Below are positions 7,813-51,016 of a stretch of DNA of 64,000 nt, in pieces. A model generated the notes under the pieces. That model was not told the origin of the DNA. It ran no database searches and saw only the letters and a list, made by a program, of their open reading frames with translations. Origin of the DNA: Antedon mediterranea (lineage: Eukaryota; Echinodermata; Crinoidea; Comatulida; Antedonidae); the NCBI RefSeq assembly GCF_964355755.1, contig NC_092680.1, positions 17,213,001 to 17,277,000 on the forward strand, written 5' to 3'. Numbering within the stretch: position 1 is the first letter of the stretch; every line of letters begins with the position of its first letter. The position numbers and the translations under genes were made by a program.

Positions 7813-9591
7813 ACAAAAGGGTAAACTAAATCTTACTTACTATCACTGTGCTTAAGTACTGCCAAAATTGGCATAGTTAGCGCACAGTGTTAAACTAAAT
7901 TCTATCTACTAGAGGGTCGCTCACTCCCCCTCTAGGAAGTGTAGACGATTGTTCTCGGAATGATAATGACTAGGGTAAAAAGGTTTTAGAAGGACGTTCT
8001 GGCGGTTAGGCCTACCATTATTAAAATGCTTGATATTCGTAAAACTAAACCTACTCTGTTTCACAGTGTCTTAAGATGATTAATAACATTTTAAAGTATA
8101 GTGTTTATTGTTTGGTAGGGCCCTTGTAGGGCGAAGGTGGGGAGGCGGAGGTCATTTGATTGAGGGAGTTGCTTATTCGAAAGATACGTTTAATTTGTTA
8201 GTTTTAATAATATATGGTAATACAGGTATTTATAATCAAATAAAATCCACTAACAGATATGAAAAGTGGTAAAAAAGAATAACAAATGCTTAGTAAATTG
8301 TAGATAACAGTGCGATGAATTCTAGGCCTACTATAAATAGTATAATTGTATAGTGTTATAAATAAATATAATACAAAATGCGATTATTATTCTAATTGAT
8401 ATTTTATTGGGAAGGTGTTCGGCGTTTATTCAAATAAATCATACCATCCTAATTGGTATTATTAATACATTATTTAGATTAAACATCTTTTGAAAATAAC
8501 TTCTGCGACAGAGTGGGCCCGTTTCGGCCTAAGAAGAAAGACGTTTTAGACGGCTTGCAACATAGGCAGAAGTATCTCAGGGTCCTAACGGGACTCATAA
8601 CAGATAGCCCACAGTATCAGCTTCTCAATAACTCGGCTATCGGGGTTCCACTCGATTTCAATCAAAAGGTCTTCTTATGATCAGTTCTTCCTATGTAATT
8701 TTATATACTAATTCCCCACAACATACTCGGATGCTTTTATGGAGTAAATTTAATTTGATCTTTATTAATTTTCAGTATAATTTTTATTTTGCAGTGCACC
8801 TTCACACGGGTGGTCCAAAAAATACAAAAAATGTAAAATGGCTATCGCCACCAACGGCCAACTTAGTTGAAACCAGGAAGTTGCAAGGTGAACACGTGGA
8901 CTCACAGTGAACCCGGAGATTACTTCTATCGCGCACAAGTTGAAAATCTACCGATGAAATCAGATATTTTGTTTCAAAACCCTTTATAATATCTTTCTAA
9001 GATAGAAACATGGAACAATATCGTAATAGTGGAAACTAAGGTTATCAAATCTACGTTTCACGGTACATCTGAGATAGATAAGGTAGGTATCCAAGACAGA
9101 GATTTGTCCCGAAGTTTTTCCATTGTTTTCGCCTATGTCAGAATTAACCATAATTTAGAATTTATATATATATTATCACTGAGGGCGTGTTATTTAATAC
9201 ATTTCGCCCATGAAGATAAATATAACTAAGAATAAGATTATAATAAGCTTTTATGACGTCACCGATATATCGATTTCCCTGAAAACCAATATGCATGTTC
9301 TTTTTTTGTATATACCTATCTGAAAAACACTTTCTGGACGCTGCAAACAAAATAACTTATACAAAATCAGGTTCCCAATACGACGCAACACAAAAGAAAT
9401 AAATAATTTGACCAACGACTACGCGTCGTGGATTTGAAATACCATCTCATGACCACTAATACGGAGAAAATGTTATTTCTCGAGTAAACAACTTGGAGGC
9501 GCATGATGGAGAAAGAAAGAAATCATGCTGGAGATCATTGAATAAAGCTAAAGCTAAAGTTAGAAAAATAACTGGTTGAAGAGAACGCAGA

Positions 9592-10415
9592 ATGCAAAAG
9601 GATTTGGATACCTTATCACACTGGGGAAAAAAATGGATGATGGAATTCCACCCCGAAAAATGCCAAATCATAACCATCACACGAAAGAAAAACATCATAA
9701 AGTATCCATACATCCTCCATGGTCACCAACTTGCACATGTAGACCACGCAAAGTATTTAGGAATAACAATTTTCAATGACCTCAGATGGAATAAACACTT
9801 GGAAAACGTCGCTGCTAAAGCAAATAACACACTGAATTTCCTCAAACGTAACATAAATATCAAAAACCCCAAAGTAAAAGAACAAACCTACAAATCACTT
9901 GTACGACCAATCCTGGAATATAGAAGTGTAGTCTGGGACTCCCACACAGATGTCCTAAAGAAAAAAGTAGAGAAAATTCAACGCCGTGCTGCAAGATTCA
10001 CTCTCAGTAGATATGAACGTACAGCCAGTGTCATTGCCATGCTCCACGAACTATCTTGGAAAACCCTGGCTGAAAGACGTCAACTCTCAAGACTATCAAT
10101 GTTCTACAAGATACACAACAACCTTGTTGCAATTGATATGGACAAATACTTATGCTCCAAAAACCTCACTGCCCCTTCTCGCACAGAAAACAGCCAAGCA
10201 TATAGTATTCCACGCTCAAGTCGGGACTATCATCGGATGTCCTTCTTTCCCAGAACGTCAAGAGATTGGAACATCCTAGCAGAATCAACTGTAAAGGCAC
10301 CAACTTTTAAATCATTTAAGGGGGTTCTTTACGAAAACTAACTCACTCGCTTCACATCCCACCAAAGTGCTATAGTCTTCAAGTCTGAAGTTTGCACTAA
10401 ATTGGAAGAAGAAGA
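9592..10415 (+). mobile_element. non-LTR retrotransposon 3' remnant (C-terminal part of reverse transcriptase)
   Basis: A 249-codon open frame (9592-10341) reads LSHWGKKWMMEFHPEKCQII, then VDHAKYLGITIFNDLRWNKH, SLVRPILEYRSVVWD and KKVEKIQRRAARFTL. This is the thumb and C-terminal region of LINE reverse transcriptases (CR1/Jockey-like order of motifs). An in-frame stop precedes it and the catalytic YADD part is absent, so it is 5' truncated. It ends in a short GAA repeat tail (about 10399-10415). The long intact frame suggests a fairly young copy. Confidence 0.85.
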
Positions 10416-10533: not shown

Positions 10534-11219
10534 GTGAGTGTACCAGTTCTCAGTTTTTTCCTCCTTGGTTTTTGACATTTTTCTCCCGCTGACTTCATTA
10601 GTTTCCATGTCATTTTATGTTGTTGGTTCAGGGTTGCATTTTCTCTGAGTTTCTTGTCATGTCAAGGTACTGAGTATTGGTTTCCTCGTAAGCTTTGTCA
10701 AGTTGCCTTTTGCTTTCCTCAAATTCAAGAGCTGATTCTTTGTTGTCTCTGAGGATGTGACTTTTATAAGCAGATTTTAGGTTTGTTTTAGGTCAATTTT
10801 ATCGCTGAAGGAAAGTGCCTTTTGTCTTTTCTTCTGTAATTTTGGGAGAAATTTTTCAGCCGTTGCTTTGTTAGCTGTTATTCCATATTTGGCAGTGGAG
10901 CTATTGTCCTCACACATATCATTGAGAATGGTGTATTTATTCTTTACCTCTATGGTGTACTTTTCCTGCATTTTGGGGTCTTGTTGTAGTATACTCCAAT
11001 CATACTTGCCTTTCTTTGGTGGGGTCTTACCACTGGCATGTAGGCTCAGTCTAACTCTGGTGTTCACAATCATGTGATCAGATCCAGTAGACACAAACGA
11101 ATTATAAGCTTGTGAGTTCATCACGCTATTCAGCCACTTTCTCCTGGTCAATATGTAGTCAAGTTGCACTCTGGACCCACTCGGCAGTATGCAGGTCCAG
11201 AGCTTAGACTCCTTCTGAA
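10534..11219 (-). mobile_element. RTE-type non-LTR retrotransposon remnant (endonuclease end and linker), frameshifted
   Basis: Minus-strand reading from 11219: LWTCILPSGSRVQLDYILTR, then an SDHMIV motif of the APE endonuclease and KYDWSIL. It continues in a second frame as ALEFEESKRQLDKAYEET and in a third as VSGRKMSKTKEEKTENWYTH, the RTE linker before the reverse transcriptase. Stops and frame changes mark it as dead. Truncated at both ends. Confidence 0.8.
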
Positions 11220-11674
11220 ATTGAATAATATAGCGTTATTATTAACAAATCGCGACAAGATAGCTGTTGTGGAATCGGTGAGAGTAAACATGATAAACAA
11301 GTTGTTGCAATATATTTGTCTTTATTTTGTAGTGTTAAAGTATTATTCAACAACTGTGTGTGTGTAGTAGAAAGAAGTAGACCACGTACGCCGACTCAAA
11401 TCAAACGGCATGATAACTAGCGATGCCGAGAGATATATGAAACTGCTTAAACAAACAATTATATAATTCAAAAGGTGCAACAACAAAAAGACTGCACACG
11501 CAGACACTCCCGGCACAACATATAATAATTATTGTTGACTCTAATTCAAACTTACCCTAAAGGGTTCCAAATAACAATATAATATAGATGATAAAAATTG
11601 CATAATATCTCACACGATACCAATTAAATATAGATCAGCCTGCCTATCGTCGTACGCGCAAAGTGAAAAACAAA

Positions 11675-11797: not shown

Positions 11798-14700
11798 ATG
11801 GCCTGTTGGAAATTCGTCTGTTTTTTTCTTTCTACCTTTCTACATTTAAGTAAAGGTATGTTATTAATATTATTTTAGTATTTACCAATGCTGTAAATAA
11901 ATGTAAAGAAAAGGGTATCTCCGACTAACTGCTTCTCTACATTTAGAAAGAAACTTGGATGTTATGCTCTTCAAAGTAGACTACTGTATATTATAATATG
12001 AATTACTTCGTTATTATTTTAAAACAAAATGTTTTCCGGAATTAGTTTTTTAACATGACTAAACATTTTTAATAATCAAAATGTATTTACACATTAAACT
12101 TTCGGCACTAGTTCCGTTTCGCACCTGTTTTTATTTCGACTTCCTTTCGACTCCAATCTTTGTAACTTATTGTGAATACCACACCTTAGGATTGGGCCTC
12201 ATAAGTACTTGTATGAAGAAAAATCACATAAATCCCTTAAATTGATGATTTTGCAGACGTGTTCGCGAATTTCGCATACACGAAGTTCAATATTTTTATT
12301 TCTGTGGACCGCCGAAAGAGCAACTAAAATAGAGGATTTAAAACTCAGTGGAATGCATCTACTTTTAATGCATCTATTATGAAATACATGTTTTAATTTC
12401 CATTTTTTGTCAATAAAAATCTTGTAACATGTTACTGCTGATAATGTTCTGTTTCCAAAGAACATTAACCAACCCTAAATCAGCATAAATTATTAGTCTG
12501 TGCCCGGGACTAAGACTAAGAGGGATATTATTTAGATCATTGAGGTATATAAACCTACAGTTTATGATGATGAATTTGTCGATTTTTATTCTTAAAAGTC
12601 AACGAAAACCATGTAAAGTATCAACAGTAACATTTCAGTTGTATTGACATTGAGAAAATATATTGAAATTGAATAATGAATAATTAATAGATGCATTAAA
12701 TATACGCATTCCACTGACTTTTTAGAAATTCACAAACCGTGTGCGAGAAACACGTCTGTAAATTCATCAATTTAAAGGATTTATTTGTTTTCTGTGATTC
12801 TCCATCGTAAAAGTACTTATGAGGTCTTATTCTAAATTGCGGTATTCAGGATTAAGTTCGTTAACAAATTTAGAGTCGAAATAAAAGACAGTTGCGAAAC
12901 GGAACTAACTAGAGCGCCAACATTTCTATTGTTCCTGTGGTTCTTGTTATTCGTTCACACACTGATGACGGTAAATTAATCAAATATATCGGTAACTAGA
13001 TATGATATGATATTTAATGCTTTAGGAAAAGATATTTAAAAATATTTTTCCCTAAAGCATTGTACAATCTACCACATGTACGCATCTCGAGTAAACATAT
13101 TGGCACGTAATGGAGCCAGTTTCCATTAAATCGCTTCACTGTATCGGTATCGCCGACAGTTGTCCCCGATTTGGGATATAGTCCATGAGCATTTAGAGTT
13201 TGACCCGCAAATGTTTGGTAACAACCTGATTGGAACATCATACTAAAAGTCCTGAAAAATCCTTCTTGTGCTCTCCAAGAAATCCAAGATGGCGTCCAAA
13301 ATAGCCGCCATAGTTCACAATATACACATTCCTATTTGCTCTAACAGAAAAAGTCTATTAATTATAGAGACAATTTGTTCACAAGATTAATTAATCTTTC
13401 TTATAAACATCCACTAAAAAATGCAGTACTGTACTTTTCATTTTAATTACTATGCTAGGGGTTATGTACTGGTTGGTATGTTGGTCTAGCCTGCTGGACC
13501 TGACCAGCGCCTACTAGACTATGTAAATATTACTAGTAGTGCCTTAGCCTAGCAGAGCATATTGTAGTACAGCCGGCCTATTACACCGGATATATGAATA
13601 TAATGACTTTTAATTATTACCCGACAGAATAACAGTACATATGTTTTATCATGTATTATTACCCACTGCTGTATATCTATTTATGTATATATTTTTTTCA
13701 GATATTTTATCATTTTGTTTATTATGTACACCTCATGTTATATCACAATATATGATTGTATTATGTAAACAAAATGATCATAACTATTTTCATGTAATAG
13801 TCCACTGATGATGCGTATAGAATCATGAGTTATTACATTAACATTATAATGTTTCATGTAAAATAGTTGCATGATGATTGATATTATGTTATCAAGGTAA
13901 ATGACTGTATACTGTGACATATATAAATATTTGTTGTATTACAACTTACAGTAGGCCTAGGCTATGTTATCAAGATAACTGACTGATAATGTGTGCCACG
14001 TTTGACATAATCTATAGTACAGAAATATTGTTTTCGAAAATGGGCCAACCATTATGAATACAAATGTTAATTTCTACCAGGAAAATATAAATCATATAAT
14101 CAATATCGAGTCAATAATTGTTAACAAAGGTAGTGGATTCCAATTGAATCACTCAAAATCAATGAATTTTTATAATCCAATCCTGTTCTCCGAAGATGAA
14201 GCTGCTGTAGTAGCGACAGTGCAGCGATTTAATAGAAACCATGCTGCCGCTTCGATGATTTTCAGGTGTGAAACTGAGACACTGAAGTCGTAACTATACA
14301 GATATTTTAATATTGCGATAGTTGGACTAAACAACGCTTGTAAGAAACATGTTAATGTAAATGTGGAGTGAATGCTTTTAATAAAGAGATCGGCCTTGTT
14401 TTTGTCTTTTTATTTATTTATTTCCACTTTATTTAGGAGCGTAAACCTTCTAGCATATCAGGCCAGCTAATATTCAGAGGTCTTCTTTAAAATTATAAAC
14501 ATATTATATTTAACTAAATTAAACTCTTTACACTATTAAATAAAATATAAAAAATTACATTATATTTAAACAATTATAAACTTAATTAAACCTCTCTAAT
14601 AATGGGTGTTTTATCATTGTTTATATAGGTGTTATATTCAAGTAAGCGGTTTTTTTTTAATACAGGTGATATTATGTTTGTAGTCAACCGGATTCCTCCT

Positions 14701-17700
14701 GGAATATATATGACAAACATTAGTTCCAGTGACAACACAACTTTAATTCTAGCATCAGTTATTCAGAATGTCGGATTAACCCGACCTTTCGCTATCGATT
14801 ATGACATTATCAGATTAACACTGTATTGGTCTGATGTCAGCAAGTACACCATTGAACGGTTTTCACTTGTCACTAACCAACATGAAGTGTTTGTATCAGG
14901 TAATATTCTATTCATTTTTACATTTGTTTTCTTTTAATTCAAAATGTAAGTAAAAAAAATGTATTTTTGTTATGTTAATTTATTTGTTAAGAATATGCAT
15001 AATTATTTGGTAGCAAGTGTATAACTTCACTAGCTTCATCATGTAGTCCAAATACTGATGTCAGCAAGGACTCCATTGAAAGGCTTTCACTTGTCACTAA
15101 CCATGAAGTGTTTAAAACACTTGGGACATTATGCTCGTAATATTCTATATTCATTGACATTGTTTTATTAGGAAAATTAAGCATCATGATATTTGGTAGC
15201 ATTTGTTTCGCTAATTTTTAAATCAAATTGTATGCAAAAGAAATGTATTTTTTTTGTTAATGTTTATTTATTCCTTTTTTGAAAGAATTTCATTTAGCTT
15301 CGATTTTGTATAGATGACAAATTTCGTTTTTGTAAAAGCACAAGTTAACGGAGTACTTACTCGAACGTTTCGATCTCTATCAGAGATCCTTCTCAACTGA
15401 CTGCGGAGTGTTAATGCAGCTTGGTCATTCTTGACGTCATCTGTTGATGACGTTGTACGCCTCCGGTTGTAGGTTGGAGGTTGAAGAACAAAGGACACGA
15501 ACCACAGAAGGAAAAGATCAAGATGCGAGGTAGCATAGGAATCCCCTATGTAAAAGGAATGGCAGAAAGAATACGACGCACTCTCTCCTATCACAATGTC
15601 GGAACCTATTTCCTACCCCAAAATAAAATCAAGAATAGCCTCGTCCACCCAAAAGATAAAATCGAGAAGATGGATACATGTGGAGTAATCTACGAAGTCA
15701 CCTGCCGCAACTGTCCACAAGTTTACATTGGGGAAACAGGGAGGGCATTACAAACACGAATTAATGATCACAAAAAAGATGTTACAACAAACACGGGGGG
15801 AGTAATGACTAGGGCCTCCAGAACATCCACATCTTCGATCATACACAAATCTGCCATTACAGAACATGTCATAAAACACAATCATGTACCGAACTGGGAG
15901 GCTACCATCTTAACCAAAGAGCCTAAACGCAAAGACAGACAGATTAGAGAATCATTACATATAAGGAGAAATAAAGAGAAGACCATGAACCGGGACACTG
16001 GAGCCCACGAACTCTCGCATTTGTACAATGATTTGATAGACACATCACCTGGCCGAGCCCCGCACAACCTCCAACCTACAACCGGAGGCGTACAACGTCA
16101 TCAACAGATGACGTCAAGAATGACCAAGCTGCATTAACACTCCGCAGTCAGTTGAGAAGGATCTCTGATAGAGATCGAAACGTTCGAGTAAGTACTCCGT
16201 TAACTTGTGCTTTTACAAAAACGAAATTTGTCATCTGTTTATTTATTGTTTAAGAATAGGCCTATGCCTAATTATTTGGTAGCAAGTTTATAATATCGTT
16301 AAGTTTACATAGCCCAAATAGACCAACTCTTCAGAGTTATTTCAAGGTTGAACCAAAAGTTGTTGAAATAAACGTTGTTGTTTAATTATCATAAATAAAC
16401 GTTTGAGGATACTAAAGTAAAATAGTGTCGGTAAGAAAATTACGTTTTACCTCTTTTTGCATAGGTGATGTTATAAGTATAAGCAACAATTTATCAATCC
16501 GTATACGATTTTTCCAAAAATTGTAGATAACGGGGTCGGATTTAGGATTTCTGAATCGAAATATTTCAGTAAGCGTTGATAACACTGATGTGAGGTTAGG
16601 ATAGATAGCGCCTAGTCCAAAGGCGTATCAGAAGTTAAACAATTTTATGTATAATTTATATAGGCCAATCTATTATTTCCTGCTTTCGCAAACAAATATC
16701 TTTCTTTTGTCATTTCCTCTGCATACAAGAACTAAAAAACCTGGGATAATCAAGGGTATAATAGAATCAATAAACCCTAGAAAGCAAAACACCAAACATA
16801 ATTAATAATAAAAACTACAGAAATAAATTACACGATTATTATAAATATCATAAACAGAATTTTACAAACAAATTCAACTGAACAATAAAAGTAACTATTA
16901 AAAACAACATGTAAAACAATCAATATATCATGCTCTGTAAAAATAAAGACATTATCTAATTATTTTGTAAATAAATTGCCACGAAATCTAATTAATACTT
17001 TACTGCAAAAGGATCAATGTTCTTGTAAAATGTCACTCACTAATATCTAAGGAATCCCACTAAAACTTGTTTGTACTTAAATCTGAAAATGAGATTCTTG
17101 AAATTTATAATCTAAAATAGTGCCGGCCTTGGCGATGTTGAACTACAATAATTATAAAAAATTGAACCCTTTTTAGGCCTCCGAACGCATAACTTATATA
17201 ATGTTCTCATCATAAAATGTCCCAACTTTTCATAAAAGAAATGATCGTACGGTTCAAATATTAAACTGCCTTGCTTTTTAAAGATACGCCATAAATTATA
17301 TATATATATAACATACTTGTTTTCTTTCGACGTGAGCAAGCATTACGAAAAAAATATAATTAGTTGCGTCGAGCACCTTATTTCTGAAAATTAGTGACGT
17401 GAAAATCGTTAACCAAAGGGTATCAAAACATGGAAGATCATTACATTTCTGCAGAATAATTAAGAAAACAAAATGGTAAATTTAAAGTTATGTTTTTAAT
17501 TAACTCAAACAATAGGATTTGTTCATCGCAATGCTATTTATCAGCTAATAATATGCAAGTTAAAATGCCTAGCTAGGTAGGGTTTTTGCGGCCGAATGAA
17601 ATTGTTTTAATGCGAGCGACATATGATGCGTGCGCGATACATGCGTTGCGTTCAAATCAAATTTATAAAAAAGTACGTTAGCACGCAACTGTTCGCTGAA

Positions 17701-20700
17701 TGATGAACTACACTGTTATGCAAATGAGTAGAATGTTGACGTCATCCGTCAAAGTAAACGTTTATTTCCTCGTTCGAAAGTTTAACCCTAGTCGAGGGTT
17801 GAGCATCATTTGAAATGTGTTAACACAGTTTTAGTCTTTAGCATATAAAGTCAATTTCAGATGCAGATGTGCGTGGTTTAGCCGTTGATGGAGCTGGAAA
17901 AAAACTTTATTGGAAAGATTCTGAAAAAAACAGAATTGAAGTAATCAATCTGGATGGAACAAAGAGAACAATTCTGTTTGACGCGGGATTATCCTATCCA
18001 CGTGCAATTGAGATAGACACAGCTAACGGGTATGTCACTCTCTCTTAACGCGCGTCAGTCTTTTTTTCAAACACCCAAAGGAGATGAACTATGTGATCAC
18101 ATCTCGGATTAACTTGTATTCTGTATATTATTAATGCATCTAAACCACACATTCAAATTCGTTGAAAAATAATAAAAATGTCAAAGAAGAATGATTGCCT
18201 TTACATTTAAAACATTCCAGGAATTAAATTTCATTAATAATATCTCAGCTTTAGTAGTTTTGTAAGTTTCTATATAATCTGTCCAGTATAGGCCAATTCT
18301 GTAAATACATTGTCACATGGCATCTGTACTATGTTGTGGATAAAATTAGTGTAGGCTTATACAGGTGTCACATGTGATACAGATATAACACTGTATTACA
18401 GAATATACTTACAGTACTTAGAATCCTGCCATAAAACCATCGAACCACCTGTATCATAATCTAAATTAGTAAAAGACTGACCCCATTAAAGTAATAAATC
18501 TGGATGGAACCTACAGAAAAATTCTTTTTAGTTATGTTTGATATATCTAACGGGTAATGTCACCATCTATACACAGTAAACCACTTTTCACTTTGCAAGG
18601 AGATCAACTATAAACTTCACATTTCCAATCTTTTGTTTCTTCTTTTTGATTAGTAAGCAAAAACGTAATAATAATAATGCATTAATACAACTCAACAATT
18701 AAGGTAGTAAATATTCGTAAATCATTAATAATTAATCTGCCTCAGTAATTTCGTAAGTTTCAATATATATTTTTTTATCCGTGGAAGGGATGTGAACGTC
18801 TTGTAACAGAACGTTAAATGTAGTAACATAGATTATACTTATACTTAGATACCTGTACTGGACTGATAGAGAAAACCATGTGATAGAGCGAGCTAATTTA
18901 AACGACTTGAGTACAAGGGCTGTCTTAGTAACAAGTGTACCAGTCGCAACCGGACTTGTTTTAGCAGTTCCCGGTAAGTTACTGTAGGCCTATGACCATG
19001 AATGCATATAAGTTATATAATATTACTACCGTATGTAATATATTATGCTTACTATTAGTAACTATTTCTAATGCTGATTGTTTATGAATGTACATAAAGT
19101 CGCTTACTAGGCTATAGTCAAACCTAGAAAATAAATTGTTACCAACTTTTGAGCCCGCAGAGCTTAATGACAAAAAACAACGATCGATTACCGTACATAT
19201 TAAAATAAATTAAATTATGTTTTAAGTATCGTGGCTGGTATCGAGGCCTATTTCTATTGTCATCCACCTATATTAGGCATGGCGGTGGTTGATAAGTGCT
19301 ATGGATGTTACAAAATATTCTTTAATACGTGAAGCTATTGGTACCAACTAATCCCAAGTACATTTTAACATAATTTGACTTGTTAATACGTATAATACAA
19401 TAAGGATCAAGCACGCATGTTTTGAAATACTATTTATAAGAAAGGAAAGATGTAGTATGATGCATGTACTGACGAAATTGAGGAGGCTAACCTTGTGCAC
19501 GCTCCATATTATGTATAGTCAATGTGTGCGCATCCGAGGCATGTGCTGGCTCAGCATTGTATTGCTAGTTCATGATACTATAAATCGTGTAAAATGTACG
19601 TGGGGTTATCACTTTGACATTCAATGTAGGCCTACTGACATTAGCGACTTTGCGTTCACACGACGCGCCACGCGTCTTTCATTCGAGTAAAAAGAAATTT
19701 CCGCGCACGCTCAGAAACACATGAGCATGCGCATAATGACATTTTTACTCGTTAGGCACAAAGTATGTTGCTCAGACCCCATAATCAAAGCTATGCTTAC
19801 ATTTAATTACATTCTCCTCTTTCTCAATGAGTGATAAACATTTTTTTTTACGTTTTACATTCTGATTCATTTTCTTAAATGTTATTTTTCATTTGAACTA
19901 AATGAATGATAATCCATTTTTGCGCGCCTACTAAAAGGTCACGTTCTTGAAATTATCGTTTTATTAAAACTTAATACGCATATTCAAGTACAGTATTCAA
20001 TCGTAAACGTCTCTCTCATTTTTGTTTTTCACTATTCTTAAGATGGAAAGATGTATTGGTGCGACCATATAACTAAGTTAATCGAGGAAGCTAACCTTGA
20101 CGGTACTAACAGAAGAACGATTATAACTCTGCCGAATAGCCCGCATGAAATTGACATTTATGGAAACTATCTGTATTGGACAGGTTATAATGGTGGTATA
20201 TATCGAGTGGATAGAACAACCGGAGTATCATCACGAGAAAGTAGCGATATTAGACTTAATAATCCAAAAGGCTTATATATTTTAACAAGTAAATATTCAA
20301 TTTTAATATTGAAATGAAATTGTTAACTGAAATTGTAGTTAAAGATGCAAATGGCACACGTTCCATTAGCGTTGCTTTTATATTTCTATTTCAGTATAGG
20401 CCTAGTTAATAGTATACAAATAATGAATGTTTATGAGTGTAATGGTACAAATAATGGCACGAGGTGAATGATGAAAGGTTATATTTCAACGAGGCGATGA
20501 GCCGAGTTGAAATATAACCTTTCATCATTCACCAAGTGCCATTATTTGTACCATTACACGAATACAAAACATTCATTATTTGTTTTATATAACATCTAAA
20601 TAAATTCTAGTTATTTGAATCAAATAAAAGGTAGCCCTAGCCAAAGTTTACTACATTTCATTCACACACATTTGATTAAAAACATTAACATTTCGTTTTA

Positions 20701-23700
20701 AATAATTTTATATTAAATGTTATATTTATATGGATTTCGTAAACACACCTACTTTTGTGTTAATTATGTCAACAAACGACCAAACAATCCTAGGCCTAGC
20801 AAGGCTAAAACGCCTAGGCTAGGCCTAGCCTAATACTAGCATGGCCTAGGCTAGACCTAGTAGCCTAGTACTAGCTTGGCTGAAAGGCAAAACTTCGACA
20901 GACAATTGGAACTTATCTAAGCTAATTATGGTTTTTCCAACAATTCCACGTCCTGTAGGGATGTCCCCATTAATTAATCAAAATCCTAAAAACGATCTAA
21001 AGCTAATTTAAATGCCTTTTTGAATGAAATTAGTACATAATGTCCAAATCGTACACAAATATCTGCTGCTGTTGCATATCTCGAGGTGGTGTTTACAAAT
21101 GAAACTCAGACCAGACGACAGGTGGCGCTGTTGTATTTCACAGTACATAGCCATATCATAGGATAATTTGTGTACTAGATTTTTTTTCATCCGCGAGACG
21201 TTTTTTTTTTCGTACACAAAAATGTTTCAAAAAGTACTATTTAACGATCGTTGAATAGTGCGTACTATTGCACGCCATGTGACCCACATTCGTCCAATCA
21301 AATGACAGGAATTTATTTAGGTGTTATATAATAAAGTATATTTGTGGTCAACAAGCCTATTTTTAATTTACCTTTTTTAAGTACCTACATTCACAATTAA
21401 GTCAAATGTGCTAGTAAAAACACTCTTTAGAACAAAACAATGTAAGACGAAATTGGAAATTCACTCAGTTTCCGAAATAATTTAAATCGACGAAATATTA
21501 TTATATTATAATATTATTGGGCGAAAGTTGCTTAATTTTTGGCGAACAAGAGTTCCATCGAGTACATTTTGATAAAAGACGCATTCCTACATATTATTGT
21601 GTTTGGTTATTTTAAGATCACAGACTACATTTTAAGAACCCTAATTGAACCTATATTGCGGTCATTTTTGTTGTATTTAAACGGGTATTAATCTGAAAAA
21701 AGAAGTTCATTATAACAATTTAAGCGACTAGCTTTAAATACCGGTATGCATTGCGCGCAAATTGCTTCAACGATAAACCCCAAAATAGAGGCGATTGTGA
21801 ATAAATTTACCGGATCTTCCCCATTCTGTATGGATTCTGCCACAACGCAAGGATGTATTTTTCTAATGTGAGAACCAAGCTTTAAATGAATACGGTAATG
21901 AATAGTAAGTTGTTTAAAACAATATGATTCAGATTCAAACAACTGTATCTACAAATTATTGCCAATAAACTATTAGGTTGAACACAACGAAATAATTACG
22001 TAAACAAAATAATTAATATCCTTAAAATGTAATTGACTACAAATAATTAAATAATCTGATAGCAGACCATCGTATAGACATTTATAATACACCTGATTGT
22101 ATTCTTGCAATTTCATTGGTCAATTATGCCTCGTTAAATAGTGAAGTCAATTTTTTCAACGAATATAAAACATAAATTATTTGTATAATAATTCTTATTT
22201 TTATTGTTATTATCTAATTGTTTATTAATACCGGCAACGTATACTTTCAGCTCCCATCATCATCATGGATGCGGGCGCAACCGTAGAAGATTCGACAACC
22301 TACTACGGAATTGAAGATGAAGTGAAGACAGATTTCTTGGTGAACACTACTGGATTGACATTAGGAACAGGCATTAAAATCACCCTAACAGCTGAGAATA
22401 TGGAGGTAATTAACTAAATAGTAAAAAGGAACACAAATTTTGTATATACAGTTTTTCTGACCATGTCATTAATTTATATATATCATGTCTATATATAATG
22501 ACAAATTAGGCTATTTTTTGGTAATTCTCAATTTAAGTCGGCGGCTATAGGGTGTAATGTTTTCCACTTCGTTGTACTTTTGGTGGTGTTCATCTAATAA
22601 TCACATACAGTGTCAAAAATCGGATAATTAGTGTTTAAAACTTGCACAGTTGTTGACCTGTGCGTCGATGATTCTCATTTGAGAATGCATATGAAGTTAT
22701 GGAATAAGTAGAATGGAAAAACTTCGTAGTCGCAAGACGATAATTCCGCACGTGATCCGGATTTTATATGCATTTTGTTTGGATTGGATTTTACACGTTA
22801 ACTAAAACTTTGAGATTTAATTTTGAAAATACATTTCTATATCATATTTTATCAGTGACACTGACAGGTTCAGAGTTCTCATAAACATAAACTATTTACA
22901 AGAAAAATGTTTAAATATAACGGCAAAGAACTAATCAAATGTTGGCCGGACATAAAGTCCACCGTAAGCCTACTGAGAACAATGGATAACATGTCTGCCC
23001 TACTGACGGACGTAAAATGAATGTGGCCAAATGAAACAAGCTATGCATTCATGTGTCGTGTGTCGACATGGATAAATACGTTAGTGTTTCCAAGAATTAG
23101 CACACACGGAACATAATGTATATAGTAGGCCTACTATAATACCGGTTGGGTGTAATTATTACCCGATTCACCGTGCTGTATCTTCACGTACTGCTAGATA
23201 TTTTCTCAGTGTCGAAGGAATATTTGGGTGTAATACTATAGGAGAAACATGTGAAACACATGTGATGTTGTATTATCAAATATTCCTATGATACTGGCCC
23301 GGATACTGAGCAAATATAGATACAGCACCGATAATCTGGTGGTAATTATAGTAACATCTTTTTTCAGTTCAACCTGTCTGCAGATCCTTTTATATGGACT
23401 TTAACAGGAAACGGAAATACCGACTCAACCATGACGGTATGGTTCTGTTTTATATGTTCCTAATATACGGTATTGGTTAATTGTGTAATGTTGTGATCAT
23501 AACAAAATAAGTTTGACGTGTGATTTTAGCAGTGAAATAATTAAATATAACTTAATGTAATGATATGTCAAAACCATAGATATATGTATTTTCTCTATAA
23601 TATAATTGGACGTGCGGAAGAAATAGAAGCAGAACCCGACTTTAATCTCAGAGATTCTAAGATTTTTACATAAATTCTGAGTTACTTCTCGATCCCGATC

Positions 23701-26700
23701 TACTGTGTTTTGTTTTTAAGTCAGATTTACCAGGGAGTTATTACAACTTCCTGAATTTACTATCAGATGGTGCTACAGATTCATTGTATTTTTCAGAGCG
23801 ACTTAAATTTCACCCTGATCTCCGCATCAGAAATTACTTTGTCTTTTAGTAATAACAGTTTGTTTTCATCTGACATTCAATTTGAAGGGACCATCAATTC
23901 TACTGTTAATGGTATTTTAACTGAATCTTTTGTTTTTATAATAATAATAATTACCTCCGCCATAAGGAGGTTATATTTTCATCCCTGTATGTTGGTATGT
24001 TTGTGTGTATGTGGGTGACGTGTGTGTGTGTCTGTGAACAGCCTGGAAGTCACAGTTTTTATGCCACAACGATCTATGCCCCAAAAGCTCGGACGAGTTC
24101 GATTTTAAGGGGAAAAGGTCACAACTAACAAAAAAACACAGTTTGTATCCGATTCTCTCCAAACTTAGCCACAATGATCAATGATTCACCATATAATTGT
24201 GGTTAAATTTTGAAGAGTCAGGATCAAAGATTAAGGTCCAAAAAGAAAAGAAATAAAAAAATAATTAAAAAAAAAAACCCTCAGCGGGAATTGAACCAGC
24301 AATCACAACTGTGAGAGGCTGGATACATAGCCATTACACCAAACTCTCATCCACAACTTTATAGTGTGCAGTTAGCCTATTTATACTTAGAACTAATAAA
24401 AAAAAGTAAAACGTTATAATTTCCGGGGAAATTTTATGTAGGGCAATTTTACAGTAGGCGGAGGTTTGTACTCTCGGAGTACCCTCTAGTTTACACTGTA
24501 AGCTGTTTAACCCAAATGAGTGTTACCACATTCTTGTTCCTATAAAACTGATATCGTTAGCGTATAAGATCAGATTTACTATCAAATTGATAATCTTTTG
24601 TAACAGTTTTTTTTTATGAATTAATATGCAGACCATAACCGATTACCATATCACATTATAACAGTTCCTATAGATCCCTCCGGTATCGTAATTACGTCAG
24701 CAAGTGCTAACAAAAACTACTTGACAAGAAATATAACACCAATACTTCTTTGAAGTGAACAGTATAGTTTTAATGTCTTCTTAATTTGAATTACCTTAGG
24801 TATACAATAATAATCTTTATTTATTGTTGTTACATCAATTTCTATGTAGCCGATGTAAAACCTGGAGCTATTTTACGTGTAACTATAACAGTTGAAATAA
24901 CTGACATATTCAATGGCTTAGTCACCGCAGAAGGAGTGTCCAACGCAGTTTTCAGTAAACTACCGCAATTCGTGATGAACATCACCGAGCAATCTGCAGA
25001 TGGCAATGTTTATGTTAACGTTGGTCAAAAAGTGCATATGAACCTTATTGTTGAGTTTCCAAAAGGTACCGCTGATCCTACAATTGAAGTCACACTACCA
25101 TACAACTTCACGACTAACAAGACAAGCGAGCAGTGGAGTATCAACAAAGTGTCCGTTTCGTATGTCAGTGACTCCTTATCCTGTACATATTCGACAGAGT
25201 TCTGCTACTACGCTTCTCAGACGCAGTACATTGCTAACGATGATGATTTAGGCATCCTTAAAGACTGGTCGGTGACACAGTTCGACGGATTTATTGAAGT
25301 GAATGACCCAGATGCTTCCTATAACATCTTGGCGTTAGAAGTTGAAATTGTCCTAGACGATACAGACGCGGTGGTCAATGGATCTGAGCACTGGTTAGGA
25401 CTTGGAATGCAGATTGGCGATGGAGCTCACATCTGGGTTGGAGAAGTACCAGTTTATACGCTGATTAATGAAGTCCCGAAGCCTAAGATGTCGTTCAAGA
25501 TAACATACGAAACTAATTCCTTTTATAAAGGGTAAGTTTAGTATCGGATACAAGCAATGTAGGCCTACTGTAAGAGTAATTGTTCTTATTATTGTAGAAT
25601 AGTATGAATGAAATAAGATAAATTTGAATGATTCAAGTTGACACCAGCGAACACTATCAGAACTTATGATGTATATTATTTAATTGGTAAACAATATTGC
25701 ATTCGTCGTATTTGATCGTTGGCAATCATTGTTTATGTTTGGCAATGTAATGTTTTAATGCAACCAATTTGAACATAAGCGGTTGACATTTTGTTTGCGG
25801 CATTTGACATTTGGGTCGCGACAATATTTTCACATAATTGCTTTTGACGTTCTATAAGTATTGGGATATAATGATTGTGGTACCACTCTAGTTCGAATTC
25901 GATAAGATTGGTTGTTATTTTCAGTGATGATGTAATACTACTGATTAGTATTTGGCACGATGACGATTCAACCGGAAAAGCAGTAAATGTAACTTTCACA
26001 ATAATGACGTCGAAAAATGTGCGATATCTTAGTCTTGAATCAGAATATACAGAGCTGTTCCAGCCACCAGTGGTAAACCCAAGCATGTCTGGACCATCTC
26101 CTGTTCGATTTAATGTAAGTTATTCTACAATCAACCGGATTCAATTATGTGTAGGGCCCATGGTCAGCTTGGTCAATAAGGTTTGGAAGAGTACTTTTAC
26201 TTAGTACTTTCGGTGTTTACCTACAGCGCTGATACATTTTGAAAGATTAGGAAACGGGTGGATGGCCAGCCAGTGTAGTACCTTCAGTAACATGTTCAGA
26301 ATACATTCATACACCTATTAATGAAGTATAACGTCTGTCTGCATTAGGATAACAAATTCGATCTTGGCTGGGTGCGATTTGTTCAGTCTTCAGATTTGTT
26401 ATCATTTAAAAGGTTTACAATTATTACAGCCATATTTCACTGTGTGGTGTGTTTCTTTTTCTCTGTTTTAATGACTTATGATATAAGTGGACAGGGGTTT
26501 TCTTAATGAAATCAAAGACAGGCGTATATGACAACATTTAGTAACATTTTGTATGTATTTTACAGCTCGGAACTATTCAGATTGCTGCCAAACCAACTTT
26601 CCGTGTACGCCTAGGAATCGACAAAAACGGAAACACTGTGCCGGGCACTCATCGATTTTTTGGCGTGGTTGATTTGTTGTGGTTCTCGACTGCTAATATC

Positions 26701-29700
26701 GCTAAAGTTCTTGGTTCCACAAAATATTTTCAATTTAAGTATTCGGACAGACCAGATGGTGGTGGTGGTAAGTGTACAATAGTGTTTTTAATAAGGCGAC
26801 CAAAACATTGAGAATGTTTCTTTCACAACATCAAGCCATTCTTATCAAATCTGAATTATATTTATTATGATTGTAATATCGGTAAAGTATCAACAATTTT
26901 TCCTGTAAACATAGAGAAGTTGTAGATACAGGAACACATGTGTATCATAACGATGACTTGCCTCGACCAAAACAACTTTCGTTGATACAATTAATTTACA
27001 TGTATGTGATCGATATTACGTTGTAATAAACAGTGTGTCTATGATTTTTACAAACATGAATCGGCTGATTGTAATAACTCTATAACTCTTACACTGTACT
27101 TGTAGATTTATGTCGATCTGGTTACACACCTTACGAAGAAACGTGTTACAAAGTGTTCAACGACACGCTAGAAACTTGGGATGCAGCAAAGGCGGCCTGT
27201 GAAGCAGACAATGCGCAATTAGTCATGATTGAAGATACGTTTGAACAGCAATTTCTTCGCGGGCTCGTTCCAGCACTCTCGCCATACAAATACTGGATTG
27301 GGCTAAAAGACGTTGGGGTGAGTATGACTCAGAGATGCCACGTCACTAGTAATCACCGTAATGAACTGACTAAGTAAACGAGGCAGGCCAGGGACGTAAC
27401 TTCGACAGGGCAAGTCTATAACTAATGACATGATATGCCATTCATTATACTCATTATGACTTTTCAATTATAACAATGTATATGTTCTAGGGTACTGATA
27501 CTTTCAAATGGACAAACGGGTCATCGGCGTCTTTTACAAAATGGCTACCAAACAGACCCGGAACAAGTGTGACTGAAGACTGTGGAGCTGCGGCTTTTGT
27601 AGATGTATACGATACCAGGGATTTCAGTACTGATCTTGGTGATTGGGACATTATGGATTGCACCGCTATCCTGCCAGCTATCTGCGAGTATAATATGTTA
27701 GATTTTGAATACGGTACGCTAAATCCAAGGTTCTTAACATACTGCAAAAGACCGTGTTTCTGCAGCCAAAAATTAACCGATAAAACTTAACCGATAATTA
27801 ACCGATGTGGAAACGGGGTTTAACTGATTCCGCTCCAGAAAAATTAACCGATAATTATCTTATTCAAATCGAATAATTATCGGATAAATGCAATAATGTT
27901 TTAACCTTTGACCTAGGACAAATTGTTGCGATGTCATTGTGCACTTGGTTTTTCGATAATGACTACATACTATCATAGACTAGTTCGCCACAATAAACCT
28001 CTAAATGAGTTACAACTGTAATTTTGTAATAAAGTAGCACACAAATATTGTCTATTAGAAAATGGGTTTTAGCAAAATAAATACGGATTTCCATTTTTAG
28101 TTACTTTTTTTCTTCAGATGAGGGAACACCAGAACCAGCATCTTCTTCAAATGAGGGAACACCAGAACCAGTATTTTATTCAGATGAGGGTACACCAGAA
28201 CCAGTACTAGGACCTGCAAAAGAAGCTGTGATGAGGTACAGTAAATGGACCGAATCTCAGACAGACGTCTGCCATTATGAAGGGGGATCGAGCCAGTGCG
28301 ATGGTTGCGTAGCTGGTGCTCATAAGTGTGAAAATGGAAAACATACTGTGTGTGTCAGTGATCTTAGTAAATGCCCAGTTGTAGGTAAGTTTGGAAAAAA
28401 AGAATTCTGTATAGTATAGCTAATATTGCACAAGAAGTTCCGTCGCATCATTAGAAAACTCTAAGAGCTTAAATATATATAACACTTCTTAATCTACAAT
28501 ACGTGTTTCAGTAATGTTAAAACATATCAGTCTAAACTAATATCCCTTAAAACCCCAAAAGGAAACTAGTAAATTAGACGCACTTTTACCAACAATTCAC
28601 ATGGTTTTATCCGTGTGACTTTTAGCAATTTGTCGAAGAATCAACATATTTTTCACACAATACAATTTATCGATTTTTTAAAAATTATTATTTCGACACA
28701 GATTACTATGACCGGGGTTTTGTCATAACTAAGAAGTTGGATGATCCGGATAACGACGTCATTTTTGCTTGTAACCCTTCAGTTGGACGTCTATCAGACA
28801 AGATTGTTCCGTCCTGCTATGTACAAGATAATCCACCAGATGGACGCTGGAAAGGTAACAAAATGAGGATTGTTTTCGTAATGTTCCTCAAAGAATATCA
28901 CTGACCTGAGTCTGTCTGATATATTAAAACACAAAGAACTTTCATACTTAACGCCTAATTTCTACGGGTCATCATACACATCGATATGGACAGCAAGAGG
29001 AATCTCTAACTTGATAAATCGAAAAGTAATAGGCTTAACACTGAAACTTTCTCCCGGAGATCTTTCGTTTTGCAGAGAACTAGCAATGAATTGATTTCTT
29101 TTGTCAATACATCCTGCCTTGAATGCCTAGCGGCCACACATATTTTCCAATTTTTAAAAAAGGCACATAATAAACGGAACATCTAAATCTATCCCAGTAT
29201 TATTACTATTATAATATGTATAAAAAATTAAATATGTTTCAATAGCTCTACCAATGAACCTACACAATGTCATTGGATCTAACCAACTCACAGGAATTAT
29301 CTATGGCATTCACATGGACATGCGCAGTTACATGCGCAGTAAGGATCATGGTGCAACGTGGGTGTTTATCAGTAAAGACGCCTGGGACTCTTTGACAAAA
29401 AGTTTGCCGGACTTCAAGACGGCTGGAACTAGTGAGGGCAACTGGCTGTGTAAGTTATTTATCTTTTTCTATTTGGTTACTGTTGTCTGACGTACGTTTG
29501 ACCAATCTCAAGCGACGGCTCATCTGACCTGTCTCTTGTGATTGGTCAAGTGCTTAAAAATAAGCTGTACTTTGCTTCTGTGGAAATAAATTAGACTTTT
29601 TTTTGTTTTAATATACGGTGACCTTAATTCTGACAATGGAACTAAATAAAACCACGTTAGATTTTAAAGTTACACTTCTATAGTTACTATAATATAAAAT

Positions 29701-29797
29701 TACTATATTTTTGTAATTAATTTCTATCTCATCTGCAGATGACGACAGTGGCCTCAAGTATGATGGCGTTTTGAAAATGAAAAAAGACTGCTGCTAA
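11798..29797 (+). CDS. unassigned secreted multidomain protein: YWTD propeller, beta-rich region, C-type lectin domain, Asp-box tail
   Basis: Seventeen exons: 11798-11855, 14666-14899, 17861-18029, 18849-18973, 20043-20288, 22251-22405, 23368-23436, 23797-23911, 24850-25531, 25925-26114, 26566-26767, 27106-27317, 27491-27713, 28118-28384, 28702-28854, 29246-29449, 29739-29797. All junctions are GT-AG; total 3363 nt, 1120 residues, no internal stop. Residues 1-19 are a hydrophobic signal peptide. Residues 20-277 form an LDLR class-B propeller with blade motifs YWSD 73, YWKD 114, YWTD 157, YWCD 200 and YWTG 240, plus a degenerate first blade. Residues 278-748 are beta-rich with about ten N-glycosylation sequons and one Cys pair; I recognise no family. 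Residues 749-893 are a C-type lectin-like domain (WIGL at 812). Then come three EGTPEP repeats, a Cys-rich patch and a C-terminal domain with an Asp-box, ending in DCC. No membrane segment, so probably secreted. Modules are flanked by phase-1 introns, as in exon-shuffled genes. Ligand unknown. Confidence 0.85.
12107..12911. mobile_element. 805-bp foldback element with long degenerate arms
   Basis: Left arm (12107-12385) and right arm (12685-12911) are diverged inverted copies. Paired blocks include ACTAGTTCCGTTTCGCA, CCTCATAAGTACTT, TTAAATTGATGA, ACGTGTT and CAGTGGAATGC. Divergence of the arms indicates age. In intron 1 of the lectin-like gene. Confidence 0.75.
15050..15120 (+). pseudogene. 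decayed duplicate of propeller exon 2
   Basis: About 65 bp matches the 3' part of exon 2 (14830-14893), including GTCAGCAAG..TCCATTGAA and CACTTGTCACTAACC, ending in ..GAAGTGTTT. It lacks the codons around YWSD and has no matching donor site. Found in the intron directly downstream of its source exon. Confidence 0.7.
15312..16236 (+). mobile_element. Penelope-like element remnant: GIY-YIG endonuclease between 172-bp inverted arms
   Basis: An open frame (15481-16137, 218 codons) carries the C-terminal GIY-YIG nuclease of Penelope-like retroelements: [20 protein letters not shown] with a downstream R..HK. Then come [12 protein letters not shown] and a C-terminal [20 protein letters not shown]-type tail typical of PLEs. 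No reverse-transcriptase part is present, so the copy is 5' truncated. It is bounded by perfect inverted arms at 15312-15483 and 16065-16236 (172 bp each). The open frame ends inside the right arm. Each arm holds a hairpin GATCTC-TGATA-GAGATC followed by GAAACG. Located in intron 2 of the lectin-like gene. Identity of the arms implies a recent insertion. Confidence 0.88.
18485..18790 (+). pseudogene. decayed duplicate of propeller exon 3 and its downstream intron
   Basis: GTAATAAATCTGGATGGAAC (18491-18510) copies the exon-3 text around 17940-17960. The following ATATCTAACGGGTAATGTCA repeats the exon-3 donor region (18018-18036). Downstream intron text is also shared: a GGAGATCAACTAT stretch, and later TTCGTAAGTTTC against TTTGTAAGTTTC near 18258. 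The coding frame is broken. The unit appears to be a roughly 550-bp tandem duplication that has decayed. Confidence 0.7.
19441..19500 (+). pseudogene. decayed duplicate of the start of propeller exon 5
   Basis: GGAAAGATGTA...GAGGAGGCTAACCTTG resembles the first 55 nt of exon 5 (20046-20100), which encode [19 protein letters not shown] stop codon now replaces the YW codons. Lies about 600 bp upstream of the intact exon, in intron 4. Confidence 0.6.
20421..20579. mobile_element. near-perfect hairpin MITE
   Basis: Arms pair across GAGGCGATGAGCC: AATGGTACAAATAATGGCAC and GGTGAATGATGAAAGG are followed by their complements. Possibly part of a larger element, because TTATATAACATCTAAATAAA (about 20585) has a complement near 21315-21336. 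In intron 5 of the lectin-like gene. Confidence 0.75.
23145..23355. repeat. imperfect inverted repeat
   Basis: GTGCTGTATCT and ATTTTCTCAGT on the left pair with ACTGAGCAAATATAGATACA and GCAC on the right; GGAATATTTG pairs with CAAATATTCC inside. A diverged foldback in intron 6 of the lectin-like gene. Confidence 0.55.
23952..24492. mobile_element. interspersed element with ACCTCCGCC/GGCGGAGGT ends and an internal tRNA-like segment
   Basis: Opens ACCTCCGCCATAAGGAGGTT and closes with GGCGGAGGT (24457-24465), then CTCTCGGAGTACCCTCTAGT. I have seen this end signature as a common repeat in aquatic animal genomes, so the family is probably known. Between them, on the minus strand (24278-24352), a tRNA-like block has B-box GGTTCAATTCC and an A-box-like TGGTGTAATGGCTATG. 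Sits in intron 8 of the lectin-like gene. Confidence 0.6.
27106..27713 (+). other. exons 12-13: C-type lectin-like domain with non-canonical sugar site
   Basis: Residues 749-893 carry the CTLD hallmarks: long-form N-terminal Cys pair (C751, C762), C780, WIGL at 812-815, C850, C876 and C884, and W837 before the long loop. In the calcium/sugar site the usual EPN or QPD triplet is replaced by RPG (PNRPG), and WND by WDI. Classical mannose- or galactose-type calcium-dependent binding is therefore doubtful. The module is one intron-split unit with phase-1 introns at both ends. Confidence 0.9.
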
Positions 29798-29802: not shown

Positions 29803-30470
29803 TGTTATGACATTTTAGCGGCCCGACTCTTTTTCAGCTGTCGCAATTAGGCCCTATTAGGAAAATTGGATTTTGTCCTGTTAAATGGCATCGAAAACTT
29901 ATCTTTGAATTTTACTAAATATTTTTGTTTTATATTTGTTTGTGATTGTAATTATGATATTTGCAGCGTATTTAATTAAAACAAAAGTTAAAACAAATGC
30001 AAAACATTTCAGAAATTTACTAATCGTAAGAGAATTACAAGTTTATCACCTTGAGCAAAACAATGTGAATATTTATTATTATTATTACATTTTTTCAATT
30101 TTAAATATGTAAGATGGTATCAGTTATTATTAAGTAAAATAGAAATAGGGTATAGAGACTATGTGACCAAAATACAAATAGAGTAAATTCTGTATAATGT
30201 CTGGCGACAATAAACATTGTGCTGTATCGTGGCTGATGACCGCAACGGCTCATATCATAGCACCTAATATTTATAAACTTAGCCTAAATAATCTCTTACT
30301 ATTACAGTATCCGATAGCGGATAAATATTTTTGTCAGAAGAGGCTGTTTAATGTCACTCACGGATACTTTAAGGTCATTAATGTCACCGTCACTGTATTT
30401 TAGAAAGTAGTCCTAATTATCAATTTCATGAAATTTATGCAACAAAATGCCGTGCTTTTAGTTTAATGTC

Positions 30471-30840
30471 TAGTCCTAGGCCTCTAGATGGCTCTTAGCT
30501 TTCGTGGTCTTAGGTTTCGTGACACCCCTAGTCCTAGGCCTCTAGATGGCTCTTAGCTTTCGTGGTCTTAGGTTTCGTGACACCCCTAGTCCTAGGCCTC
30601 TAGATGGCTCTTAGCTTTCGTGGTCTTAGGTTTCGTGACACCCCTAGTCCTAGGCCTCTAGATGGCTCTTAGCTTTCGTGGTCTTAGGTTTCGTGACACC
30701 CCTAGTCCTAGGCCTCTAGATGGCTCTTAGCTTTCGTGGTCTTAGGTTTCGTGACACCCCTAGTCCTAGGCCTCTAGATGGCTCTTAGTTTTCGTGGTCT
30801 TAGGTTTCGTGACACTCCTAGTCCTAGGCCTCTAGATGGC
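30471..30840 (+). repeat. 58-bp tandem array, about 6.4 copies
   Basis: Period 58 from TAGTCCTAGGCCTCTAGATG through TTTCGTGACACCCC. The first five units are essentially identical; the last full unit has single changes. Lies just downstream of the lectin-like gene. Confidence 0.95.
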
Positions 30841-32064
30841 TTCGGCTTTGTTAAATAATGTCGTATACGTATAAACATCTTTGTGAACATGCCGTGTTAA
30901 TCTTACTGTACAATCACATGGCTTTCCGATTTTTAAGGAAAATATAGGCGTAGGCCAAGTTCTACTAGATCTTATGTACAATTTCATAAGACACACTTTA
31001 ATTAAGCCTTTCGTTCCGCGAACGTATACCGTTTGCCTCCTCACACCAGAAACTCCTTGCAAGAAAAAAACTATAGCCTCAATGTGTTTAAATAAGGAAT
31101 GTATTATTATTATTGTTAAATTGGTGTATTAATTGAATTAATTAACGTAATTCAGCGCTTAAATAAAGTTGTCGAAAAAAAAAATCATTATTACATAGTT
31201 GAATTTTTTTTATGTTGTACTACTACATAACCACAGACATCTGACACTTGACTTGACTACTAACCATTGCAAGAAATTCTCGCTATATTTGAGAATTAGG
31301 ATTCATATTATGACTACAGTATTTTAATTCATTGAAGTTCAAACACCCAATTTGTACGGCCATCTGCGTTGAAATACCGGTTCTCGTCAGTTGGCGTTCT
31401 GGATGGGAGAGCGCGCGTCTGGAATCGCATCGGATGCTCTATATGCTTTATTTTTTCTCCTACAAGAAGAGGCTAAAATCATGAATAATTCATGATTGAT
31501 AAGTCATTATGACATTATAGGGGTCGCTATATATTTACATGGACAGTAATGTGAGTGATGGAGTAATGATAATATCGGGATAGCATGTGGTAGGCATGGG
31601 TATGGGCATGTTTTCTTAAAGTTTTTGAAAAATACCTGAAAACCAGGAGCAACATGCATAATCAAAGTGACAATGAGTGCAGAGCAAAGATTCTCAATTC
31701 AATATAGGCAAGTTATGCTTGACGATAACTTTAAATTGTGGACGTTTATCGCGCAAACAAACATTACAAAAAAAGAGTTAACAATTTTCTGAAATTATTT
31801 GTGTTAATATAAGTTTGTGGGCGAATTTATTTTCGCAAACCGCATGTTCCCTGATCTCTAAATTAATTTTGGTAGCACATTCTTTACTTTCACAACTGTG
31901 ATTGGCTAAATCGTCGTCACTGCTTTGCTCCAATTGGTTGATTGTCTACTCAACAATCACTGTTGCCACCGCGTATTCTAAACTTTCTCGGAACAACGAT
32001 AGTCAACTGCAGAAGAAACACGTCTGCTACCAAGCTCCGCCCCAGAAGAACTTTTAGAAAAGTA

Positions 32065-50682: not shown

Positions 50683-51016
50683 AGGCCTAAAGCCAGTTTT
50701 CCACTAGGCAACCAATCAGAGATCAGGAAATGAGACGGAGGCCTAAAGCCAGTTTTCCACTAGGCAACCAATCAGAGATCAGGAAATGAGACGGAGGCCT
50801 AAAGCCAGTTTTCCACTAGGCAACCAATCAGAGATCAGGAAATGAGATGGAGGCCTAAAGCCAGTTTTCCACTAGGCAACCAATCAGAGATCAGGAAATG
50901 AGATGGAGGCCTAAAGCCAGTTTTCCACTAGGCAACCAATCAGAGATCAGGAAATGAGATGGAGGCCTAAAGCCAGTTTTCCACTAGGCAACCAATCAGA
51001 GATCAGGAAATGAGAT
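50683..51016 (+). repeat. 56-bp tandem array, six copies
   Basis: Unit begins GGCCTAAAGCCAGTTTTCCA and includes CAACCAATCAGAGATCAGGA; period 56. Early units carry GACGGA, later ones GATGGA, so variants are grouped along the array. Confidence 0.95.

Follow-up and report, generated by a model that had tools for sequence, protein, structure and literature searches.

The stretch of DNA analysed here (the window) comprises 64,000 nt from Antedon mediterranea, and it carries a gene for a predicted secreted protein that combines a YWTD propeller with a C-type lectin-like domain (CTLD). The coding sequence of 3363 nt is divided into 17 exons between positions 11798 and 29797 (+) and encodes 1120 residues followed by a stop codon, with no frameshift and with GT-AG at every intron of the model. 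An earlier note, made from the letters of the window, had given the same coordinates, exon count, frame and length, and all of these were reproduced exactly. In addition, phase-1 boundaries were found around exons 2-5, around exons 12-13 and around each of exons 14, 15 and 16; such flanking is usual for mobile extracellular modules. We compared the gene with paralogous loci of the same genome (copies lettered B to P, on contigs C1 to C11). Judged by sequence, it belongs to a multigene family whose members carry exchangeable heads, whereas the earlier note described one gene. The features are collected in Table 1.

To describe the protein, we took the Pfam matches up to E = 10, which covered six families. 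Ldl_recept_b (2e-21, three stretches) and Lectin_C (residues 771-885, 3.2e-16) were above the cut-off. No EGF-like module and no LDL receptor class A repeat was among the matches up to E = 10, and neither NACHT nor WD40 was among the Pfam matches. The matching YWTD repeats and the absence of EGF from these matches agree with the earlier description of a propeller without EGF modules. In the search of PDB sequences, the closest propellers were those of LRP2, LRP4 and LRP6. Meanwhile, residues 278-748 had no convincing Pfam match (the best was PQ-loop, 0.12), the Cys-rich tail (residues 894-1120) had none up to E = 10, and the PDB at E <= 5 returned nothing for either the middle region (searched as a three-sequence profile) or the tail sequence. 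The middle region had been called one of no recognisable family, and the Pfam and PDB profile searches bear this out. AlphaFold2 on exon 9 with 13 copies gave no confident fold (mean predicted local distance difference test score, pLDDT, 34.3), and a tblastn search with 190 residues of exon 9 against phage records gave no match. The middle region (exons 6-11) contains 10 N-glycosylation sequons and was found in all ten copies compared, the discoidin-headed copy P included. The tail carries a single Asp-box (SKDHGATW, residue 1065), and the C-terminus reads KMKKDCC.

A search of the 354-Mb genome located exon 9 at 20 places, one of them in the window. Nineteen of them were full-length (14 on C9, two on C2, and one each on C3, C5 and C11, with copy H at C9:20.61M) and one was partial (C9:12.37M). 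The tail exons were matched at the same places, with extra fragments on C8 and C10. Nine paralogues were fetched for comparison with the window. In eight of the nine (seven on C9 and one on C3), exons 3-17 were matched in the same order and strand, with 56-100% protein identity per exon. Exon 2 lay in the fetched stretch of seven of these eight copies, and the match for copy L lay about 11 kb further upstream. Only copies B and G yielded an exon like exon 1, and similar peptides stood upstream in P and N. At the join of exons 2 and 3, the reading FVSLGS was found in six of eight copies, while the window and copy J are shorter there. This conservation of exon order and strand supports the earlier claim of a complete gene and its domain order; it is a substitute for cDNA and no proof.

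Further loci with the same propeller exons (about 50-65% identity) were found at C1:5.9-7.3M, C2:34.2M, C3:13.8M, C5:21.6M, C6:5.18M and C11:18.15M, and several of them are clustered. The downstream partners of such loci were examined at C1:6.73M, C8:3.18M and C9:15.92M. At C8:3.18M, a 377-aa open reading frame (ORF) lies shortly downstream of the propeller (L033 3233-4366); its start is EP-rich, and it contains several hydrophobic stretches. This ORF could encode a membrane-anchored partner or could be a separate, unrelated gene.

Two fetched copies carry another head in place of the propeller. In copy P (C9:12.72M), exons 6-16 were found and exon 17 was not; upstream of exon 8 there were five consecutive matches to exon 7 (L031 789-1213). 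Copy N (C2:19.93M) has exon 6 onward, its exons 9-16 being read from genome matches and not from the fetched stretch. No propeller was found in the fetched upstream stretch of either copy. Instead, F5/8C (discoidin) exons stood upstream of exon 6 (Pfam 1.1e-16, 3.8e-10 and 7.3e-7 in P; 8.4e-17 in N), and peptides like that of exon 1 also stood upstream of exon 6, MACWTIVCVFLWIILHMSKG in P and MDCWKFVCIFLSALLHISKE in N. Among the 20 places, by match position, propeller exons lie upstream at at least 11 (the window, B, C, D, E, F, G, J, L, the copy at C9:20.63M and that on C5), and discoidin matches were found at at least six or seven. These comparisons showed that a predicted signal-like exon and exons 6-17 are common to propeller-headed and discoidin-headed copies.

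The same data bear on the possibility that there are two adjacent genes, a propeller gene and a lectin gene, which were duplicated together. The propeller does have other partners, for instance at C1:6.73M, where propeller exon 5 is followed by ORFs with HYR domains (5e-12, 1e-15 and 3e-15), and exons 6-17 occur without a propeller in P and N. However, a different head and a peptide resembling the signal peptide precede exon 6 in each of these copies, which places exons 6-17 behind a secreted head in P as well as in N. Furthermore, the exons of the window join in phase, intron 11 spans just 338 bp, and the keeping together of exons 3-17 in eight of the nine fetched copies argues against the break into two genes that the earlier note had named as a refutation. 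Thus, we regarded two genes as highly unlikely and set this explanation aside.

To see how the copies differ, we calculated the mean pairwise ratio of nonsynonymous (dN) to synonymous (dS) divergence for up to nine copies (28 or 36 pairs). The ratio was 0.57 in the propeller (dN > dS in 5 of 28 pairs), 0.38 in exons 6-8, 0.25 in exon 9 and 0.36 in exons 15-17, and in the last three regions dN exceeded dS in 0 of 36 pairs. Mean dS was 0.30 in the propeller but dropped to 0.07-0.10 over exons 10-17, which suggests that the 3′ half is younger or has been homogenised. In addition, the copies look mosaic in these sequence comparisons. For instance, copy C was nearest to D in exons 3-10 and 12 and to E in exons 11, 13, 15 and 16 (where the C-D difference reached 0.074), and the nearest neighbour of copy D was F over exons 2-3 and 11-16 and C over exons 4-10. 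The family is clustered, mainly on C9, and appears mosaic, as the nearest copy shifts along the gene.

When eight complete propellers were aligned, the strands were conserved, and the variable residues followed immediately on YWxD or surrounded the proline that precedes the next strand. According to the passages of PMC7585440 and PMC10089208 that deal with ligand contacts and top-surface residues, LRP6 propellers hold short peptide motifs on their top face. From the sites given there we mapped 18 contact columns, of which 17 were usable. At these columns the pooled dN was 0.731 and dS 0.364, a ratio of 2.01 (column bootstrap 1.21-3.75), compared with 0.53 at the other 244 columns, and none of 20,000 random column sets was as diverse. 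A second set of 35 top-face loop positions, chosen by motif, gave 1.63 versus 0.42 elsewhere, and of the 37 columns that hold at least four residues, 29 fell inside it. Codon likelihood gave the same picture. The one-ratio estimates for the contact columns were 2.67 and 2.88 on two trees (twice the log-likelihood difference, 2 delta lnL, 6.88 and 7.72). With one tree per exon, the estimate rose to 3.44 (2 delta lnL 8.95, p = 0.0028), while the loop set gave 2.25 (p = 0.0055) and the rest 0.33. Overall, positive selection was found in the top-face loops with ratios of 2.0-3.4 and p = 0.003 to 0.009. The result was kept when the most diverged copy J was removed (contact ratio 3.10).

Two further comparisons pointed in the same direction. 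On the opposite face, with bottom-face loops assigned from propeller topology, 25 of 39 loop columns were invariant versus 0 of 35 on top. Furthermore, 61 exon pieces from outside the eight-copy set (23 of exon 5, 18 of exon 2 and 20 of exon 3), which are mutually related and include the nearly identical L051 and L052, had 6.55 residues at loop columns versus 2.95, and dN/dS was 1.58 versus 0.54 (351 pairs). Taken together, the alignments showed that dN/dS above 1 in the propeller is confined to loops predicted to lie on the top face.

It may be asked whether relaxed constraint or gene conversion among dispensable duplicates mimics selection here, the loops being merely free to vary. Pseudogene pieces do exist (the fragments on C8 and C10, and a stop in copy P), the copies are mosaic, and loops are generally less constrained than strands. 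However, neutral drift would bring the ratio near 1, not to 2-3.4, and in the same copies the bottom loops are mostly invariant and the rest of the propeller has ratios of 0.33-0.53. Thus, we consider this explanation very unlikely. The family might also consist of matrix, adhesive or signalling proteins whose heads bind different matrix or growth-factor ligands, the face having changed once per copy as the functions split. HYR and discoidin partners occur in matrix proteins, and the closest propellers by sequence belong to receptors for endogenous ligands. However, the ratio at the contact columns is above 1 also among close copies (6.96 in the trio C, D and F), and this is repeated in unrelated clusters, which suggests continuing change. 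A matrix or signalling role therefore seems quite improbable to us, and we return to diversification of a recognition face as the preferred reading.

The CTLD was considered as the diversified part and was rejected, because it is nearly invariant between copies (dN/dS 0.24, dN > dS in 1 of 36 pairs). EPN or QPD together with WND are the usual Ca2+/sugar-site motifs of calcium-dependent C-type lectins. In all ten aligned rows, RPG and WDI were read by eye where these motifs would stand, so sugar binding of the classical calcium-dependent kind is not expected from this sequence. The earlier note had proposed recognition of a glycan or lipoprotein by the propeller and the lectin. A role in recognition is favoured here in another form, in which the propeller is diversified at its presumed ligand face, while glycan recognition by the CTLD is weakened by the missing motifs.

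Some details of the gene model and its surroundings should be added. When exon 14 was placed at the nearest in-frame acceptor, copies B, C, G, J and P had stop codons inside the exon, and copy L yielded no acceptor; in these script-placed models the exon was open only in the window and in D, E and F. Thus, the 5′ end of exon 14 is uncertain in most copies. EGTPEP was read in the window, D and F and not in B, C, E, G and J. Since every unit of the repeat holds the same acceptor-like sequence, the number of repeats in the mature protein is also uncertain, and it could depend on the choice of acceptor. Within intron 2 there is a 228-aa ORF with a GIY-YIG domain (Pfam 6.2e-5), whose two flanks are repeat-like, in opposite or the same sense. 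It is probably the remnant of a mobile element, presumably Penelope-like. Just upstream of the gene we found a reverse-transcriptase fragment, whose RVT_1 match (2.2e-4) does not reach the Pfam cut-off, and an ORF that by eye is endonuclease-like. Further downstream, an ORF resembles part of the non-lysosomal glucosylceramidase GBA2, by eye only. Rfam gave nothing in the window at gathering scores, and ARAGORN found no tRNA there.

Table 1. Features of the gene and its surroundings, in positions of the window
Feature	Position	Strand	Remarks
Exon 1	11798-11855	+	Start codon and signal peptide (by eye)
Exons 2-5	14666-14899, 17861-18029, 18849-18973, 20043-20288	+	Six-bladed YWTD propeller, residues 20-277, without EGF
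Top-face loop codons (35, exons 2-5)	within 14779-20269	+	dN/dS above 1 between copies
Example loop codons	14779-14784, 14836-14847, 17920-17931, 17992-18003, 18868-18876	+	Propeller top face
Example loop codons	18940-18951, 20066-20077, 20135-20146, 20186-20194, 20261-20269	+	Propeller top face
Exons 6-11	22251-22405, 23368-23436, 23797-23911, 24850-25531, 25925-26114, 26566-26767	+	471-residue region, no Pfam or PDB match
Exons 12-13	27106-27713	+	CTLD
Exon 14	28118-28384	+	EGTPEP repeats and six-Cys stretch
Tandem repeat, 33 bp x 3	28108-28206	+	Codes EGTPEP, spans the start of exon 14; unit includes acceptor-like TTCTTCAG
Exons 15-17	28702-28854, 29246-29449, 29739-29797	+	Tail: two more Cys, one Asp-box, C-terminal CC, stop codon
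Reverse-transcriptase fragment and endonuclease-like ORF	9580-10341 and 10777-11235	+ and -	
GIY-YIG ORF	15451-16137	+	Intron 2
GBA2-like ORF	47690-48040	+	
Tandem array	30470-30841		58-bp unit, 6.4 copies
Tandem array	37769-38521		45-bp unit, 16.8 copies
Tandem array	50683-51016		56-bp unit, 6 copies

Recognition proteins tend to vary on the face that grips the ligand. We proposed that the copies probably form a germline-diversified family of secreted recognition proteins with a variable head and a constant tail, which would most likely serve in humoral non-self recognition as an opsonin-like defence. The top face of the propeller would bind peptide or protein ligands, different ones in different copies, in the way that LRP6 propellers bind short peptide motifs. 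The conserved middle region, the CTLD and the Cys-rich tail may have a shared function, for example in oligomerisation, anchoring or the recruitment of an effector. New specificities could arise continually through exchange between copies together with selection at the face. A more specific form of this proposal, which we offer only tentatively, is an invertebrate humoral repertoire with antibody-like logic. In such a repertoire, a constant secreted stem (exons 6-17) would carry either a YWTD propeller or a discoidin head, these being interchangeable, and the face of the propeller would be diversified by selection and by exchange among about 20 germline copies.

It should be noted that several observations weigh against this proposal. 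The variation is not confined to the head, as dN exceeded dS in 13 of 36 pairs in exons 10-11 (dN/dS 0.76, with low dS) and in 9 of 28 pairs in exon 14 from KEAV on (0.53). Eight of the 37 most variable propeller columns lie outside the loop set, dS is raised at the loop columns too (0.36-0.47 versus 0.24-0.26), and in the close trio C, D and F the full loop set reaches only 1.28. The contact test was not blind, since the variation in the alignment had been seen before the LRP6 contacts were looked up; nevertheless, the sites come from the papers. The codon likelihood was computed with a custom script without comparison to a standard program, and the eight copies are few, related and mosaic, so the one-tree model is violated. 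In addition, some face residues are common to several non-CTLD loci. The first discoidin domain of copy P is interrupted by an in-frame TAA, while this piece is open at the four next-best places. Finally, the defence role, which we rank as the most likely one, rests on analogy.

The same variable-head design might instead serve gamete or self recognition, with the face coevolving with a partner within the species (egg coat, sperm or histocompatibility) rather than with microbes. Selection at a binding face and expansion of copies are equally typical of such families, and the fungal parallel discussed below is itself one of self/non-self recognition. However, the sequence gives no pointer to gonad or tissue, and the swapping of whole heads fits many targets better than one partner. 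We therefore consider this alternative unlikely and keep defence as the preferred role.

YWTD propellers are conserved receptors for lipoproteins and Wnt-pathway ligands. What is new here is a probable diversified recognition family on a scaffold that is not known in that role, and if the proposal is true, this would be, to our knowledge, the first case in animals of a YWTD propeller that serves as a variable recognition domain. Among the open-access papers listed in our searches, none described this protein architecture, and none dealt with diversifying selection at the face of a YWTD propeller. Support for the earlier word "undescribed" is limited to Pfam, PDB sequences and the open-access papers searched. 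If the proposal is true, the family would be a new example of an innate repertoire with a variable head and a constant tail. It would also provide a natural library of propeller binders, in which the scaffold is kept and the face that holds the ligand in LRP6 is varied.

Several known systems can be compared with this family. The YWTD propellers of LRP5/6, LRP4 and LRP2 align over the whole propeller length, and the variable columns here are the places of the LRP6 ligand contacts given in the passages of PMC7585440 and PMC10089208. Unlike the LRPs, the present protein has no EGF in its Pfam matches and a single propeller with a variable face, joined to an unmatched region and a CTLD, in about 20 copies. 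PLA2R, LY75 and mannose receptors were among the best PDB sequences for the CTLD (residues 749-893). Unlike that family, there is only one CTLD here, with RPG/WDI for EPN/QPD and WND, and it hardly differs between copies. Coral tachylectin-2, as portrayed in the relevant part of PMC2880987, is an invertebrate propeller lectin with a putative recognition role and positive selection. However, that part of the paper deals with one locus studied by alleles, with selected sites on the surface and not at the sugar-binding residues. Meanwhile, sea urchin SpTransformer (Sp185/333), in the accounts consulted, likewise comprises secreted immune proteins encoded by a diversified multigene family, with clustered genes and mosaic sequences; it differs in having two small exons with repeats, and those accounts name no propeller or lectin.

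The closest parallel in design is found in fungi. In HET-D/HET-E (NWD), positively selected codons lie in the d-a loop and the b-c turn atop a WD40 propeller that acts in non-self recognition, according to the sections of PMC1805685 on these proteins. As in that family, the present genes form a multigene family with selected top-loop codons in the same two kinds of loop and with exchange between copies. However, HET-D/HET-E are intracellular NACHT/WD40 proteins with near-identical repeats, whereas the present protein is a predicted secreted YWTD protein with exchange seen between copies, so that the parallel to fungal non-self recognition propellers would arise in a different propeller class. 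On the basis of this parallel, we ranked defence first, gamete or self recognition second, and a matrix or signalling role third.

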